DNA of 64,000 bases from Bordetella parapertussis (GTDB taxonomy: Bacteria; Pseudomonadota; Gammaproteobacteria; Burkholderiales; Burkholderiaceae_B): NCBI GenBank assembly GCA_945887835.1, contig CAMCZQ010000003.1, forward strand, positions 1-64,000, given 5' to 3'. Shown here in pieces: positions 6,980 through 13,616 of this stretch. The notes under the pieces were generated by a model, which was not told where the DNA came from, ran no database searches, and was given only the letters and a program-made list of their open reading frames with translations. The number at the start of each line of letters is the position of its first letter. Positions within the stretch are counted from its first letter, which is position 1. Made by a program: the position numbers and the translations under genes.

Positions 6980-9900
6980 TCAAACAAAACGGTCTGCGTG
7001 GTTGAGACTTGCTGCGGCTTGTTCGCTGTCAAGCAAAGGCAATAAGTTTGAATGGTCTTCTAAACGCCCCACAAGCAAGTGTTGCGTGCCTTGTAAATTT
7101 TGCCACGTGCCAATGGCCGCCAGTAAAGGCGCATGAAATAGCTCACGGCGCTGTCGTACGGCTAACTCAGCGCGTACGATCAGATTGACCGAGCCGGTTT
7201 CGTCTTCAAGTGTAATGAATACGACTCCCTTGGCGGTTTGTGGTCGCTGACGCATGGTGACCAGGCCACAAGCGCGTGCCAGACGCCCTTGTGGAAACTG
7301 TGCCAGCGTCGTGGCGGGCGCAAAGCGCAGGCGTGTCAAGGTTTGGCGTAGCAAAGCCAGAGGATGGCGCCCTAGCGTAAAGCCCAGACGTTGATAGTCA
7401 ACGACGATATCGTGTGCCTCTGTGGGGGCTGACAAAAGGGGTTGCTCGTGCTCGTGGGGCTCGGCTTCGCGCAGCAAGCCTTTGCTTGCCACACTCGCCG
7501 CCGCGTTCCAGGCCGCCAAACGGCGATGTCCGCTTAAAGAATGCAGGGCACCCGCCAGTGCGAGTTGTTGTAAAACAGACAGATTGAGCTCTGCGCGTCG
7601 ACCAAGTTCTTGGGTGTCAAGAAACGGTCCAGATTGCCTGGCCTCAAGCAGCGCCTGAGCAGCCTTTTCAGGCAAACCGAGAATCTGATTTAAGCCTAAG
7701 CGTACGGCGGGCCGTGCACCCGACAGGCCAGCTTTGTCTGACGCTTGCCTGGCTGCGTCAGGCGAAGCGAACGCCATCTCGAGCGTGCATTCCCAGTCAC
7801 TAGCCTGCACGTCGACAGGCAAAAGTTGTACCCCGTGACGACGCGCGTCTTGAATCAACTGTGAAGCCGCATAAAACCCCATTGGCTGCGAGTTCAGCAG
7901 CGAAGCCAAAAAGGCTTCGGGTTCGTGGCACTTTAACCAAGCGCTGGCATAGGCCAATAAAGCAAAGCTCGCGGCATGACTTTCAGGAAAGCCGTATTCG
8001 CCGAAACCCTCGATTTGTTTAAAAATTGTTTCAGCAAATTCAGGTGTGTAACCGTTATTCAGTAAACCCTCGATTAATTTTTGTCGAAATTGATCGACGC
8101 CTCCCTTGCGCCGCCAGGCTGCCATTGAGCGGCGTAATTCGTCAGCTTGGCCCGCAGTAAAGCCTGCCGCGGCCATCGCAATCTTCATGACTTGTTCTTG
8201 AAAAATCGGCACGCCTAACGTGCGCTCAAGCACCGCTCGCACCGCTTGGCTCGGAAACGTCACGGCCTCAAGGCCTTGCCGGCGTCGCAAGTATGGGTGC
8301 ACCATGCCACCTTGAATTGGCCCCGGCCGTACGATGGCAACTTCGATGACCAGATCGTAAAACTGACGGGGACGCAAACGCGGCAGCATTGACATTTGCG
8401 CACGCGACTCGATCTGAAAAACACCGACCGTATCCGCTGCACAAATCATGTCGTAGGTGGGACCGTCGTCATCCGAAATATCTTGCAAGCTAAAGTGTGG
8501 CAACTTGCGACGCCAGGCCACCCACTCTAGGCTGCGACGCAGCACCGTTAACATGCCTAGCGCCAGAATATCGACTTTTAATAAACCTACCGCGTCTAAA
8601 TCGTCTTTGTCCCACTGCACGACGCTGCGCTCTGCCATGGCGGCGTTTTCAATCGGTACTAAGCGTGACAACAAGCCACGCGCCAGCACAAAGCCACCCG
8701 GGTGCTGCGACAGGTGACGCGGAAACCCCATCAACGCCTGGGCAAGTTCGGCCCATTGTTGCGTGACACTAGCCTCGGCGTCTAAGCCCGCTTCAAGCAA
8801 ACGATTAATCAGATTTTGTTTGCCATCCCACCAGCGATGCGACTTAGCAACCCGGTCAATGATCTGTGCATCAATTCCCAGAGCGCGACCCGTATCGCGC
8901 AAGACACTGCGCGGTCGATACGAGGTGACCACGCCAGTTAATGCGGCGCGTTGCCGACCATATTTTTGATACAAGTATTGAATGACCTCTTCGCGGCGCT
9001 GGTGTTCAAAGTCAACATCGATATCCGGGGGTTCATTACGTTCGCGACTAATAAAGCGCTCGAATAACGCATTGCCGTTCGCGGGGTTAACGGCGGTGAT
9101 TCCCAGGCAATAACATACTGCTGAATTCGCTGCGGACCCGCGACCTTGGCACAAAATCTGTCGGCGCACCGCAAATTGCACAAGATCATAGACCGTTAAA
9201 AAATAGGTTTCATAGCCAAGCTCTGCAATGAGAGCGAGTTCGTGTTTAAGCTGTGCGCGAACAGTGTCGGGCACCCCAGCGGGGTAGCGTTTGGCCGCGC
9301 CTTGCCAAGTTTGCTCGTGCAGATATTGCACGGCACTGTAGCCTGTTGGTACGACTTCTTCGGGGTATTCGTAGCGTAATTCATCCAGGCTAAAGTGGCA
9401 TTGTTCGGCAATGCTGATGGTTTGCAATAAAAGTTCAGGGCCATACAGATTGCTTAAGCGCAAGCGTGTGCGCAGATGCTGTTCGGCGTTTGAGGCCAAG
9501 GCATAGCCGCATTGCGCAACGGTTTTGCGTAAACGAATTGCCGTCAAAATGTCATGCAAAGCTTTGCGCGAACGCTTGTGCATTTCGACCTGACCAAGCG
9601 CCACGCAAGGGATACCATAGGTTTGCGCCAGTGTTTGTAGCGCGTGTAAATGTGTGGTTTCTTGTGCGCGATGCAAGCGACTGATGCCGACCCAGCAGCG
9701 TGTTGAAAAATTCTGCGAAAGCCAGTCTAACTGTTTGGCAAAAGCCGCTGGTGTCACGTCTGAGGCGGGTATCAAGATCGCCAGACAGCCGTCAGTCACG
9801 ACATCTTGAGGCTGTAAAAAATATTGACCTTTAACCGCCTGCATGCGTCCACGCGTGATCACTTCGCATAAATTACCGTAGCCTTCGCGGTGCTGCGCGA

Positions 9901-10165
9901 GTAAGACAATTTTGTAAGGCGGTTGATTGCTTGGGTCAAGGCGAAGTTCAGAGCCTACTAATAAGGTCAGCCCTAATTTTTTGGCCTCAAGGTGGGCGCG
10001 CACAATACCTGCTAAAGAGCATTCGTCAGTGAGCGCCAGTGCGTGGTATCCCAACGCGGCCGCCTGAGCAACCAGACTTTCAGGCGAAGACGCACCACGC
10101 AAAAACGTAAAATTTGACAGGCAGTGAAGCTCGGCGTAGCCGGGTAAAACAGTGCTGAAATGCAT
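6980..10165 (-). CDS. dnaE2: Error-prone DNA polymerase DnaE2 (ImuC)
   Basis: C-family DNA polymerase of about 1061 residues that carries out mutagenic translesion synthesis together with ImuA and ImuB during the SOS response. An N-terminal PHP domain begins YAELHCLSNFTFLRGASSPE. The catalytic palm has PDIDVDF with Asp381 and Asp383, and the third acid is expected in LLKVDILALGML. The fingers, helix-hairpin-helix and OB domains follow (ITLEDETGSVNLIV near the C terminus). It lacks the C-terminal tau-binding extension of replicative DnaE, as expected for DnaE2. ATG 10165 lies 5 bp after the imuB stop (TAAGCGTCATG), so the genes are coupled; a longer frame to 10297 would overlap imuB and lacks homology. 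Confidence 0.97.
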   Translation of the reverse strand: MHFSTVLPGYAELHCLSNFTFLRGASSPESLVAQAAALGYHALALTDECSLAGIVRAHLEAKKLGLTLLVGSELRLDPSNQPPYKIVLLAQHREGYGNLCEVITRGRMQAVKGQYFLQPQDVVTDGCLAILIPASDVTPAAFAKQLDWLSQNFSTRCWVGISRLHRAQETTHLHALQTLAQTYGIPCVALGQVEMHKRSRKALHDILTAIRLRKTVAQCGYALASNAEQHLRTRLRLSNLYGPELLLQTISIAEQCHFSLDELRYEYPEEVVPTGYSAVQYLHEQTWQGAAKRYPAGVPDTVRAQLKHELALIAELGYETYFLTVYDLVQFAVRRQILCQGRGSAANSAVCYCLGITAVNPANGNALFERFISRERNEPPDIDVDFEHQRREEVIQYLYQKYGRQRAALTGVVTSYRPRSVLRDTGRALGIDAQIIDRVAKSHRWWDGKQNLINRLLEAGLDAEASVTQQWAELAQALMGFPRHLSQHPGGFVLARGLLSRLVPIENAAMAERSVVQWDKDDLDAVGLLKVDILALGMLTVLRRSLEWVAWRRKLPHFSLQDISDDDGPTYDMICAADTVGVFQIESRAQMSMLPRLRPRQFYDLVIEVAIVRPGPIQGGMVHPYLRRRQGLEAVTFPSQAVRAVLERTLGVPIFQEQVMKIAMAAAGFTAGQADELRRSMAAWRRKGGVDQFRQKLIEGLLNNGYTPEFAETIFKQIEGFGEYGFPESHAASFALLAYASAWLKCHEPEAFLASLLNSQPMGFYAASQLIQDARRHGVQLLPVDVQASDWECTLEMAFASPDAARQASDKAGLSGARPAVRLGLNQILGLPEKAAQALLEARQSGPFLDTQELGRRAELNLSVLQQLALAGALHSLSGHRRLAAWNAAASVASKGLLREAEPHEHEQPLLSAPTEAHDIVVDYQRLGFTLGRHPLALLRQTLTRLRFAPATTLAQFPQGRLARACGLVTMRQRPQTAKGVVFITLEDETGSVNLIVRAELAVRQRRELFHAPLLAAIGTWQNLQGTQHLLVGRLEDHSNLLPLLDSEQAAASLNHADRFV

Positions 10166-10170
10166 GACGC

Positions 10171-11667
10171 TTAACCAAAAAAGCCATGTAAAAACCAACG
10201 TGCCTGTTCGGTATCGCGTTCGCGGTAGATCCAGTAACGTACTGCCCGTTGATCTTGTGCAACAAAATAATCGCGTGCAATACGCAAGTGATCCCACCAG
10301 CCGCTTTCAATGCGTTCGGGGCCTCGTAGTAAGTGCAAAGGGCCCTCGTACATGGGTCGATCGCCCCTCACTTTGAGCGCCAAAGGCTCGGTTAACAACC
10401 AGAAAGGCCTTTCTCTTAAAAAGGGATCGTTTGCGTAGCTTGCAGGCGTGCTCAGTGAGGGGCTTGCCTCTGGTGTGAGTGAGGCTTTCAAAGGTAACCA
10501 GCGGTTCTCAATCTCAGGCCGGTGATCGGCAAGTTGTGCGGGTTGTAAAACGTGTTCGGCGCCAAGCCGTGCCGACAATAAATCAAGCAGACGCCGGTAA
10601 TCAGCCGGTGCGTGCAAGGGATCTGGAAACAGTGTCGCGCTGCGCGCACTTTGTTGTGCCAGCGCTTGGCTGCGTAAGGTCAGGGCAACGACTGGCCCCG
10701 CTAAGACTTGACGCGACAGGCGCTCGCGCAATAAAGGCACTAGCTGCACCATCAGCCAGACGGGTTCGCCAAAGGCGAGTTCAAGCACAGTGGGTGGGCA
10801 GGCGTGACGTCCGCGTTCGTGGTGCAGCTCAAGGATGGCGCTACGCAAGGCGGCTTGCCTGGCTGCTAACCAAGTACACAGGCTCAGTGCTAAACGCTCT
10901 GAGAGCCCGGCAAGCGCTGCCGTGTGTTCCAGGCGCTCGAGCAAGTCAAGTTGTTGAACAAATTGTTCGGGTGCGACATAAGGCGTCTGACGCCAGGGCC
11001 CCTGTGTATACGCTTGTTCGAGCTCGGCAAATAAAGCAGGGCCAACGCGTCGTTGTAGCCCCTTACGTGGCAGGGCTCGTAAGCCTCTGAGCGTTTCACA
11101 ACCAAGCGCGTTGAGCCAAACCAAATGCGGTTTAGCGCTTGGTAGCGCCGCGCAAGGTACACGACTGAGCAAACGTTCTAACGTTGCCTGGCCGCAGGCA
11201 TAACGTGCAGGCGATACTGCAGCTTGCGCTAACAGCCAGGCACCCCTTGCCGTTGGGGCAACGCTGCTTCGTACTTGCAGTTTCAAGAGCTTAAGTTTTT
11301 TGCGCAACCCTTGAACAATCGGACGCACGCCGCCAAATAACCGTAAGCTGTAAGTGGCTTCGAGCAACACAATGTCGCCGGTGTGTTGGTAGACAGACGG
11401 CGAATAGGCAAGGGCGGCTTGTGCAGCTTGAGCGTAAGCACTGTGTTCTGCGGCCGGATCTCTTGGATAAAGCAAACACTCAGGCGCCAGGCTGCGCGCC
11501 GTTGCGCAACGCATGCCCAGCGTCAGCCCGCGCTGCAGCGCGCCTGGCGTTGCAGCGATCAGAACATCGTGCTCGAACACGGCGGCGGCGGTGGGCTCAG
11601 TCAGCCAGTTGAGTCGCCACGTGTCCAGGCTGAGGTTGTGCAAGTGCAGGCCGATCCACAGGGTCAT
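10171..11667 (-). CDS. imuB: ImuB, catalytically inactive Y-family polymerase-like hub
   Basis: 498-residue Y-family-like protein that is not expected to polymerise DNA but bridges DnaE2 and the beta clamp. The N terminus WIGLHLHNLSLD lacks the DxD metal-binding signature that opens true Y-family polymerases. Palm/fingers-like and little-finger regions follow (PSVAPTARGAWLLAQAA resembles the family helix near residue 140). SATLFPD around residue 345 is a candidate clamp-binding motif. The start at 11667 gives the canonical N terminus and overlaps the end of imuA by 71 bp in another frame. Second gene of the SOS mutasome operon. Confidence 0.92.
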   Translation of the reverse strand: MTLWIGLHLHNLSLDTWRLNWLTEPTAAAVFEHDVLIAATPGALQRGLTLGMRCATARSLAPECLLYPRDPAAEHSAYAQAAQAALAYSPSVYQHTGDIVLLEATYSLRLFGGVRPIVQGLRKKLKLLKLQVRSSVAPTARGAWLLAQAAVSPARYACGQATLERLLSRVPCAALPSAKPHLVWLNALGCETLRGLRALPRKGLQRRVGPALFAELEQAYTQGPWRQTPYVAPEQFVQQLDLLERLEHTAALAGLSERLALSLCTWLAARQAALRSAILELHHERGRHACPPTVLELAFGEPVWLMVQLVPLLRERLSRQVLAGPVVALTLRSQALAQQSARSATLFPDPLHAPADYRRLLDLLSARLGAEHVLQPAQLADHRPEIENRWLPLKASLTPEASPSLSTPASYANDPFLRERPFWLLTEPLALKVRGDRPMYEGPLHLLRGPERIESGWWDHLRIARDYFVAQDQRAVRYWIYRERDTEQARWFLHGFFG

Positions 11668-12334
11668 GGGAGGATATTGAAAAAGAGTCTGAAGCTTGGG
11701 CGCCTAACCTGACGGGATGCCCGCAGGCTGGGCCACGACGTTTGATAATGGATAAAGTGAGAGCGCCCGATTGTTCAGGGGACAGCAACAGACGTAGGAC
11801 TGCAGGCGATGCTTGGCTTTGTACAGCGTGCGGGCGAAACATAAAAAATAGCGTTTGACTACTTTGTGCAGCCAGATGTAAACGCTTCAGTACCGAGGTT
11901 TGAATGGGATGCGCCCAAAACAACAAGGCCGCACAACTGCCATTCTTTAGAATTTGCTCAGCCGCCCAGTAGGCATCGCGCGCACGTTGTGGTGCCAAAT
12001 AAAGTAAACGTTGAGTGCCTAGTCGCCAGCCCGACCAGCAAGCACTATTCGGTTGATAAGGGGGCTGCAACAAGACAACCGGTTGTTTGTTTAAGTCAGC
12101 CTGTAAAGCGGTGCGCAACAGTTGGATTTCGCCTACGCCGGGCTGAGCAATCAGCAGTTCAATCAAACTGCCGGTTGGCCAGCCTTGCCCAGGCAGTTCG
12201 GCATCGAGTGCTGCAAAGCCCGTGGCGATCGTCGGCCCCGTACGCGCGCCAAATTGCGACCCCCGCCAAAGCGCAGGGTGCAAGTTAAGTAACGAGGTTG
12301 CGGGACCTGTTAAAGAAGAAAGAGGGCTCGACAT
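11597..12334 (-). CDS. imuA: ImuA, RecA-like SOS mutasome protein
   Basis: 245-residue ImuA (SulA-related, RecA-fold) protein, first gene of the imuA-imuB-dnaE2 operon. It has the family N terminus around LHPALWRGSQFG, the region TGFAALDAELPGQGWPTGSL and a degenerate Walker A-like loop QPGVGEIQLL; the middle segment CAALLFWAHP matches the position of Walker B in RecA relatives. ImuA supports translesion synthesis by binding ImuB, and may modulate RecA. The 3' end overlaps imuB by 71 bp. A LexA box lies about 45 bp upstream of the start. The transcript just before the ATG reads GATCTCCTTCA and has no purine-rich Shine-Dalgarno. Confidence 0.92.
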   Translation of the reverse strand: MSSPLSSLTGPATSLLNLHPALWRGSQFGARTGPTIATGFAALDAELPGQGWPTGSLIELLIAQPGVGEIQLLRTALQADLNKQPVVLLQPPYQPNSACWSGWRLGTQRLLYLAPQRARDAYWAAEQILKNGSCAALLFWAHPIQTSVLKRLHLAAQSSQTLFFMFRPHAVQSQASPAVLRLLLSPEQSGALTLSIIKRRGPACGHPVRLGAQASDSFSISSHDPVDRPALAQPQPGHVATQLAD

Positions 12335-12363
12335 TGAAGGAGATCAGTGAAAAGAAGATAAAA

Positions 12364-12409
12364 AGGAGCATAAATATACTGTACAAATATACAGTATATT
12401 TATGCTCCT
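12364..12409. repeat. 46-bp perfect palindrome enclosing the SOS box
   Basis: Two perfectly complementary 20-bp arms (12364-12383 and 12390-12409; left arm AGGAGCATAAATATACTGTA) flank a 6-bp centre. The LexA box is the core. On the minus strand, the direction of imuA, the right end is followed by TTTTTAT, so the transcript could also fold as a terminator-like hairpin in the leader. This is far longer than LexA needs. Confidence 0.9.
12379..12394 (-). promoter_or_regulatory. LexA binding site (SOS box) of imuA-imuB-dnaE2
   Basis: CTGTACAAATATACAG matches the consensus CTGT-N8-ACAG used by beta- and gammaproteobacterial LexA. It is centred about 53 bp upstream of the imuA start, where LexA would block RNA polymerase. 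It implies induction of the mutasome by DNA damage. Confidence 0.92.
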
Positions 12410-12632
12410 GCGTGTGCCACATCAAAAATAACGAGACCTACGGATTAACCCTTGCCTGTCCTGACTGACATACGTGCAATGCGCACAACAAACAAAAAAT
12501 CAGCTAAGTTTATGTCAAGCCCTTAGGCGTGCAGCTGCGGGAATATGGTCAGGTAATGCCTGATACCGACAAAGTTCTGTTGGATTCAGCCGCCGTTTGA
12601 GGCCTCTTGAAGGGATACTCAGGGAACACACA

Positions 12633-13616
12633 ATGCAAAGCAAAGTCATGTCGTTTTTAGGTGGTTTTCTTTTTATGGGTTGCGCGGCTGTGGCACTTGC
12701 GCAAAGTCCGTCCCCATACCCTAACAAACCCATCACAATGCTTGTCCCGTTTCCACCCGGAGGAGTGACTGACCTGGTGGCGCGCGAACTGAGCAAACGC
12801 TTGAGTGAGGGACTGGGTCAAGCCGTAGTCGTCGAAAACCGCATCGGTGCAGGTGGCAACATCGGCACCGCCGCGCTGGCTAAAGCGCAGGGCGATGGTT
12901 ATACCCTCGGGGTGATGACCGTCAGCGCGATGTCAATCGCCCCTCACATACAGAAGTCTTTAAGCTTTGTGCCGGCGCGCGACTTCACGCCGATCACGAA
13001 TATTGTGAATACGCCCGGCGCAGTTTTAGCAGGCATCACGACGCCTTATCACTCCTTACAAGACTTGGTGAAGGCCGCCAAAGCCGATCCCGGGAAGATC
13101 CCCTACGCAAGCGTGGGGCTTGGGTCTTTACCGCACTTGATTGCCGAAAAGCTCGCGCTTGATGCTGGCATTAGCTTGTCGCACATACCCTACAAAGGCG
13201 CGGCACCCGCCATGCAAGACTTATTAGCGGGCGTTGTGGCGTTGTCTTTTGAAAGTGCGCTGACCAATACCGTGACAAACTATCAAAGCGGCCGGTTAAG
13301 AGTGCTCGCCACAACGGGCTCAGTGCGAGTCCCCATCTTAAGCGGCATACCGACAGTGGCAGAGTCTGGTTACCCTGGCTTTGTCGCGCAAGGCTGGTTT
13401 GGTTTTTTTGGGCCAGCGGGTTTGCCGCCAGCCATTACCAAACGTTTGAATGAGATTGCCACAGCAATGCTCAAAGACAAACTAGTCGTAGAGCGCTTCG
13501 AAAAACTAGGCATCCAAGCCGATCCATTAACGCCTGAGCAATTCGTTACGTTTTTACAAGAACAAGATCGGATCTGGGCCGCGACCGCGAAAGGGTTGAA
13601 TTTACAGCTTGAATAA
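12633..13616 (+). CDS. Bug/TctC-family periplasmic solute-binding protein
   Basis: 327-residue tripartite-tricarboxylate-transporter receptor (Bug family). A Sec signal peptide ends near VALAQS; the mature protein starts with the family pattern YPNKPITMLVPFPPGGVTD, then VVENRIGAGGNIGT, and later the conserved SHIPYKGAAPAMQDLLAG and SGIPTVAESGYPGF. Bug proteins bind carboxylates or amides in the periplasm and are greatly expanded in Alcaligenaceae. No tctA/tctB membrane genes or catabolic enzymes are adjacent, so the ligand is unknown and it may feed a permease encoded elsewhere. ATG 12633 was preferred to the upstream 12597 start because it gives a normal signal peptide. Confidence 0.93.
   Translation: MQSKVMSFLGGFLFMGCAAVALAQSPSPYPNKPITMLVPFPPGGVTDLVARELSKRLSEGLGQAVVVENRIGAGGNIGTAALAKAQGDGYTLGVMTVSAMSIAPHIQKSLSFVPARDFTPITNIVNTPGAVLAGITTPYHSLQDLVKAAKADPGKIPYASVGLGSLPHLIAEKLALDAGISLSHIPYKGAAPAMQDLLAGVVALSFESALTNTVTNYQSGRLRVLATTGSVRVPILSGIPTVAESGYPGFVAQGWFGFFGPAGLPPAITKRLNEIATAMLKDKLVVERFEKLGIQADPLTPEQFVTFLQEQDRIWAATAKGLNLQLE

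Follow-up and report, generated by a model that had tools for sequence, protein, structure and literature searches.

Template switching makes quasipalindromes perfect in E. coli (PMC7202029) and, at imperfect inverted repeats, can alter several bases at once (PMC7202029, PMC8794818, PMC8604942). It can also create perfect stems together with compensatory changes, and its role in the upkeep of short stems is described as less clear, on circumstantial evidence (PMC8794818). The E. coli QP5 reporter, which scores a templated 4-bp deletion and not substitutions, gave 4.3 reversions per 10^8 cells and a 9-fold higher value in lexA3 (PMC6357072). Compensatory change is usually taken as proof of a selected structure. 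At the palindrome upstream of imuA described here, the compensatory changes lie on either side of a site for protein binding, and few signs point to an RNA; the locus therefore lets one ask, in natural lineages, whether template switching can mimic such a signal unaided.

Genomic context of the imuA operator

The window, by which we mean the whole 64,000-nt stretch of DNA that was analysed, carries the following genes around the operator:

6980..10297, minus strand: dnaE2, error-prone DNA polymerase (NCBIfam NF004225, 1441 bits against 939)
10171..11667, minus strand: imuB-like Y-family polymerase gene (Pfam IMS PF00817, 29.3 bits against 23.2; no NCBIfam match)
11597..12334, minus strand: imuA (NCBIfam NF033429, 205 bits against a cut-off of 150; no Pfam match)
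12633..13616, plus strand: TctC-type receptor gene, the divergent neighbour (Pfam PF03401)

The name imuB-like rests on the domain and on the position of the gene after imuA, and the real start of dnaE2 probably lies within the open reading frame given. Directly 5′ of the imuA ATG at 12334 we saw no Shine-Dalgarno-like sequence (CTGATCTCCTTCA), and many imuA homology matches started at residue 16–17, so the true start of imuA may differ from 12334.

The genome of the window (G000) contains lexA (TIGR00498, 228.7 bits against a cut-off of 110.95), and the CTGT-N8-ACAG site 5′ of imuA is a predicted LexA (SOS) operator. Its genus-mates include Alcaligenaceae bacterium Baikal-G1 (a metagenome-assembled genome, G154) and Zwartia hollandica (G127). 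A LexA-type box preceded imuA in most family genomes read; 158 of 184 imuA upstream regions (some genomes being represented twice) had it in strict form, and some of the other 26 have a box whose spacer is less rich in A/T. Among 111 genomes with imuA, 90 upstream regions were read, with the weakest matches omitted and a second imuA fragment of one genome (G162, L051) excluded.

A perfect palindrome centred on the LexA box

The features of the palindrome are as follows:

12360..12363, minus strand: TTTT that follows the palindrome when read towards imuA, also present in G154 and G155
12364..12383, no strand assigned: left arm, 20 nt, exact complement of 12390–12409
12364..12376, no strand assigned: outer left arm beyond the LexA 20-mer, varying among close genomes in step with 12397–12409
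12377..12396, no strand assigned: LexA/SOS box, the 20-mer TACTGTACAAATATACAGTA, with its CTGT-N8-ACAG core at 12379–12394
12384..12389, no strand assigned: spacer, 6 nt, CAAATA on the plus strand
12390..12409, no strand assigned: right arm, 20 nt, complementary to the left arm at 20 of 20 positions
12397..12409, no strand assigned: outer right arm beyond the LexA 20-mer, partner of 12364–12376

The plus strand at 12364–12409 reads AGGAGCATAAATATACTGTA-CAAATA-TACAGTATATTTATGCTCCT, confirming the sequence-only reading of this DNA, which had placed a LexA site at the centre of two complementary 20-bp arms. The LexA core CTGTACAAATATACAG and the palindrome have the same centre, and the half-sites of the box are part of the arms, leaving 13 pairs outside the 20-mer; the 6-nt spacer is itself non-palindromic. 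CTGT-N8-ACAG matched once in the window (chance mean 0.78), and among the eight inverted repeats of at least 14 nt listed there (distance up to 60) the palindrome alone reached 100%, the rest lying at 78–86%. Folded as RNA it gave z = −9.6, with none of 200 shuffles equally good. Of the T-run in the TTTTTAT reported earlier for the imuA direction, only TTTT lies beyond the arm, the fifth T being the final arm base.

Two other origins were rejected. A mobile repeat was set aside because the LexA-like sites listed from this genome include the palindrome only once, and an assembly artefact because the G000, G154 and G155 assemblies all have perfect arms in different letters.

Paired changes in the closest genomes

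Eighteen of the 32 genomes of the genus had an imuA match, and in the closest genomes imuA is 98–99% identical. Both G154 and G155 carry a perfect palindrome whose letters differ from those of G000: CATAA/TTATG in G000 stands against CACAA/TTGTG in the other two, and ATGAG/CTCAT in G154 against AGGAG/CTCCT in G000 and G155. Across the three genomes all 20 pairs are kept (100% of cells), two having changed on both sides and none on one side only, and one of the two-sided changes is a double transversion (G-C versus T-A); the re-dealing control on this alignment is weak with three rows, 53 of 500 shuffles being as high. Between G000 and G154, 4 of the 46 palindrome positions differ, all of them in two partner pairs, compared with 18 of 344 positions elsewhere in the region; the probability that four random positions of 40 make two partner pairs is 0.002. 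For the 13 outer pairs in the 18 promoters of the genus, covariation was 0.384 against 0.142 in shuffles (0 of 500 as high, in a control inflated by relatedness) and at most 0.167 in slid versions.

Covariation of the outer arms in related genomes was the test that the sequence-only reading had itself proposed, and the outcome is positive, as the letters change and the pairing stays; this supports the view that something holds the flanks. That reading took selection to be the likely cause. Mutation alone, with one arm serving as the template for the other, explains the pattern without selection, a process that the sequence-only reading did not consider. The ancestral arm in the G000/G154/G155 trio is not fixed by any outgroup, and G086 may itself be the outgroup; siblings near enough for polarity were not found in Bordetella (imuA in 8 of 9 genomes, the nearest 88% identical) or in the genus of G056 (imuA in 4 of 4).

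Long palindromes in other lineages and at umuD

The imuA box of G151 is also a perfect palindrome, of equal reach in other letters, and its five outer left-arm bases, CTAGG, are the exact complement of CCTAG in its right arm. In its siblings the left block reads ATTCT (G170), ATCGG (G166) and ATTCA (G144), none of them complementary there. These siblings show 24 to 31 scattered differences from G151 over 321 aligned columns, with 5 (G170), 4 (G166) and 6 (G144) differences at the ten outer block positions; in the left block four of five bases differ from both G170 and G144, and since only two of five differ from G166, a block copied in one step is not proven for G151. The imuA box of Bordetella sp. 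02P26C-1 (L008, the same as L132) lies in a long palindrome broken by a single mismatch, and that of G056 in a perfect, shorter one.

Among the LexA-like sites listed, long palindromes were likewise present within the genus at the umuD-umuC boxes of G086, G160, G164 and G173 (in G173 with one G-T), the Peptidase_S24 and IMS domains of the operon being checked for G160 only. The umuD loci of G160, G164 and G173 are orthologous, with a common neighbour gene and UmuD identities to G160 of 91% in G173 and 81% in G164 over the 43 residues present on the contig. At their boxes all 14 pairs are kept (100% paired); in four of them both partners have changed, in one a single partner. UmuD siblings of G160 at 97% identity have no long arms and another gene context. 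At the umuD box of G086 the left arm differs from a block that four relatives have in common and is complementary to the right arm of the same box. The blocks of G151 and G086 are compatible with the copying of one arm from the other, the ancestral state not being fixed. Compared by eye, the outer-arm letters differ between lineages and no common motif is visible.

Excess of long arms over controls

Removal of 18 duplicates from the 158 strict imuA boxes left 140 distinct ones, and 20 of these (13 from this genus, 7 from others) have at least five extra perfect pairs beyond the 20-mer. Re-dealt flanks gave a mean of 1.6 such boxes, with a maximum of 7 in 2000 shuffles, and sliding the partners by 1–4 gave 0 or 1; the AT preference beside the box is kept by the re-dealt control and not by the slid one. 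With the set thinned to 111 boxes, 11 had at least five extra pairs against 1.0 in AT-matched re-dealt flanks (at most 5 in any of 5000) and 4 had runs of at least seven against 0.11, self-pairs being omitted from the AT-matched shuffles. Extra runs of 13 pairs appeared in re-dealt flanks in 0.034 boxes per shuffle of 140, and these probably come through pairs of close relatives. At umuD, 4 of 16 boxes had at least five extra pairs against 0.31 expected, with 1 of 5000 shuffles as high, in a set that includes G174:C105 on promoter similarity only; G060 and G173:C40 showed no exact box. Independent gains are fewer than these counts, because 13 of the 20 long imuA boxes belong to one genus and 3 of the 4 long umuD boxes to one orthologous locus. 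In several lineages, inverted-repeat arms are more perfect than composition allows.

None of 28 recA-class boxes had at least five extra pairs, the longest run being 2; these boxes were assigned by promoter similarity, recA being seen beside those of G000 and Z. hollandica, and the box of G026, also beside recA, was omitted. Flanks of the recA-class boxes resemble −35/−10 hexamers. That long arms may favour polymerase operons comes from a comparison with the recA class only, tandem-box promoters and other LexA-like sites being uncounted. An order-wide sample searched with the exact strong-box pattern gave six sites in 150 genomes, none of them by eye with at least five extra pairs, and is too small.

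Origin of the extended palindrome

Our preferred reading, to which we give a probability of about 0.52, is that imuA-imuB-dnaE2 has an ordinary LexA operator-promoter, the quasi-palindromic box of which was extended and is kept perfect by template switching in the course of DNA replication (quasipalindrome correction). We infer that a nascent strand would stall at the box, fold back, copy the opposite arm and return, making one arm the reverse complement of the other; a later point change in one arm would be copied to the other likewise. LexA would act on the central 20 bp, and the outer arms would need no function. Per-base mutation rates are near 10^-10, and quasipalindrome reversion is some hundred times more frequent; at such rates correction would run ahead of point mutation, and an extended palindrome could be retained while its letters change. 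The first extension would be rare, because it needs complementarity beyond a mismatch. This scheme fits the sporadic gain of long arms, their persistence in two clades, the double transversions that skip G-U intermediates and the absence of long arms at recA. The spacers may hold a further hint, since ATAAATAT, present in 7 of 140 boxes, exactly inverts ATATTTAT, the spacer found most often (31 of 140); G156 is among the carriers of ATAAATAT, and its sibling G165 carries ATATTTGT. These are possibly spacer inversions, although simple substitution explains them too. Weighing against template switching, the evidence is comparative, with no mutation observed happening and the polarity of the changes not fixed, and if correction were easy all boxes should drift to long arms, which 120 of 140 have not done; the persistence of the umuD trio and the genus-wide covariation also fit selection.

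Selection for symmetric DNA is the main rival to template switching. The outer arms would then be maintained as DNA, an extended symmetric and possibly cruciform-forming operator that tunes LexA binding or promoter opening independently of its letters. We consider this possible, if on the unlikely side: pairing past the 20-mer holds throughout the genus although the letters vary, and long arms occur at imuA and umuD boxes and at none of the recA class, but 120 of 140 imuA boxes have fewer than five extra pairs, the siblings of G151 have only 5–6, the close UmuD siblings of G160 lack long arms (though their gene context differs) and no common letters are visible for a protein to read. More doubtful still is a combination of the two, in which the SOS operator of a translesion polymerase would be an actively maintained, letter-independent palindrome, forming a hairpin or cruciform on stalled or supercoiled DNA that senses damage or tunes LexA release, and being both selected and repaired by template switching.

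Transcription start and the proposed leader RNA

The search for promoter elements gave one further feature:

12393..12420, minus strand: GTGGCA-16-TATACT, the best promoter-like site in the imuA direction (1 found against 0.6 expected in shuffles)

Its −10 element lies within the palindrome, and transcription from it would begin at the centre of the box. Among 120 family promoters a TTGACA-like hexamer (5/6) was commonest with its start at −33 relative to the box centre (7 of 120, with 0–2 elsewhere), plain TTG being equally common at −29; taken with TACTGT as a −10 element, this peak would likewise put the start near the box centre. These elements hint weakly that imuA transcription starts there, in which case transcripts would lack the left arm.

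The earlier proposal of a leader RNA that begins upstream, folds and terminates at the U-run therefore meets a difficulty, as a leader from the box centre would fold at only −2.3 kcal/mol, compared with −33.5 kcal/mol for RNA with both arms. We think this explanation improbable. The full-length RNA would form a 20–21-pair hairpin followed by TTTTATC, stem and U-run are present in G000, G154 and G155, and the paired changes are compatible with an RNA stem; yet the T-run occurs in only one of the long-arm lineages read, a run of four T being absent after the long palindromes of G151, L008, G056, G160, G164, G173 and G086, and the A-U to U-A and G-C to U-A changes skip G-U. A known RNA family was rejected, all 13 Rfam matches lying under the gathering score.

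A second repressor dimer on the flanks, the other proposal of the sequence-only reading, is very unlikely. Large operators are known at error-prone polymerase genes, as for UmuDAb of Acinetobacter, but UmuDAb requires a specific core and arms and acts in a genus without LexA (PMC11332147), whereas lexA is present here; the UmuDAb motif TTGA-N4-GTWAC-N4-TCAA (PMC11332147) is absent, by eye, from the palindrome, and the lack of a visible common motif in outer arms that vary between lineages disfavours any such protein. Chance extension of an AT-rich box, for all that AT-rich flanks adjoin it, is scarcely credible against the re-dealt, AT-matched and slid controls and the two-sided changes in three genomes.

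Other SOS-box loci in the genus

Loci L120 and L249–L258, in genomes of the genus, have two to three overlapping tandem SOS boxes (CTGTN8ACAGTACTGTN8ACAG..., 18-bp spacing) 5′ of a small ORF. Its C-terminus, variable around roughly F-W-x-A-M-x-P-x-x-L-x-x-G-N-A-A-G-F, is conserved in 11 of 11 loci read; the three tested had no Pfam match, and the product is conceivably a small membrane protein induced by SOS. Contigs C107 and C147 of G000 (L120 and L125) carry the tandem-box region in two diverged versions, which suggests a strain mixture in this metagenome-assembled genome. A LexA-type box also abuts the apparent ATG of TnpB-like genes (named from their first residues) at L259–L261, and at L126 (1578–2801) such a box is found where a TnpB gene (NF040570) with an ambiguous start codon begins; TnpB is possibly under SOS control in several genomes of the genus.

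Comparison with known systems

These observations suggest that the operators controlling mutagenic polymerases could be hotspots of mutation in their own right, and this would bear on the interpretation of regulator motifs and covariation. Among the titles and abstract openings covered, with subscription papers and preprints mostly outside them, we found no report of template-switch palindromes at LexA boxes, and the available text of PMC10434271 and PMC6636244 holds nothing on template switching at these boxes.

The palindrome resembles the E. coli thyA and lacZ quasipalindrome hotspots (PMC7202029, PMC6357072) in that an imperfect inverted repeat is made perfect and one arm is explained by the other; in E. 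coli reporters were measured, whereas here a transcription-factor operator in natural lineages is interpreted by comparison. RNA hairpins that arise and are maintained by template switching (PMC8794818) likewise show perfect stems with compensatory changes. In yeast genes arms are homogenised or spacers inverted (PMC8604942), and such inversion is possibly echoed in the ATAAATAT spacers; the cases in these two papers concern RNA genes or coding sequence, neither of which is known to be involved at the imuA box. With the UmuDAb operator (PMC11332147) the locus has in common a larger palindrome at error-prone polymerase genes and differs in its core and in the presence of LexA, the arms of the UmuDAb operator being sequence-specific. 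It is closest to the LexA boxes of imuA-imuB-dnaE2 and umuDC, sharing the CTGT-N8-ACAG core, the place 5′ of imuA and a lexA gene in the genome, and it departs from the usual LexA box in complementarity that runs 13 pairs past the 20-mer in covarying letters.
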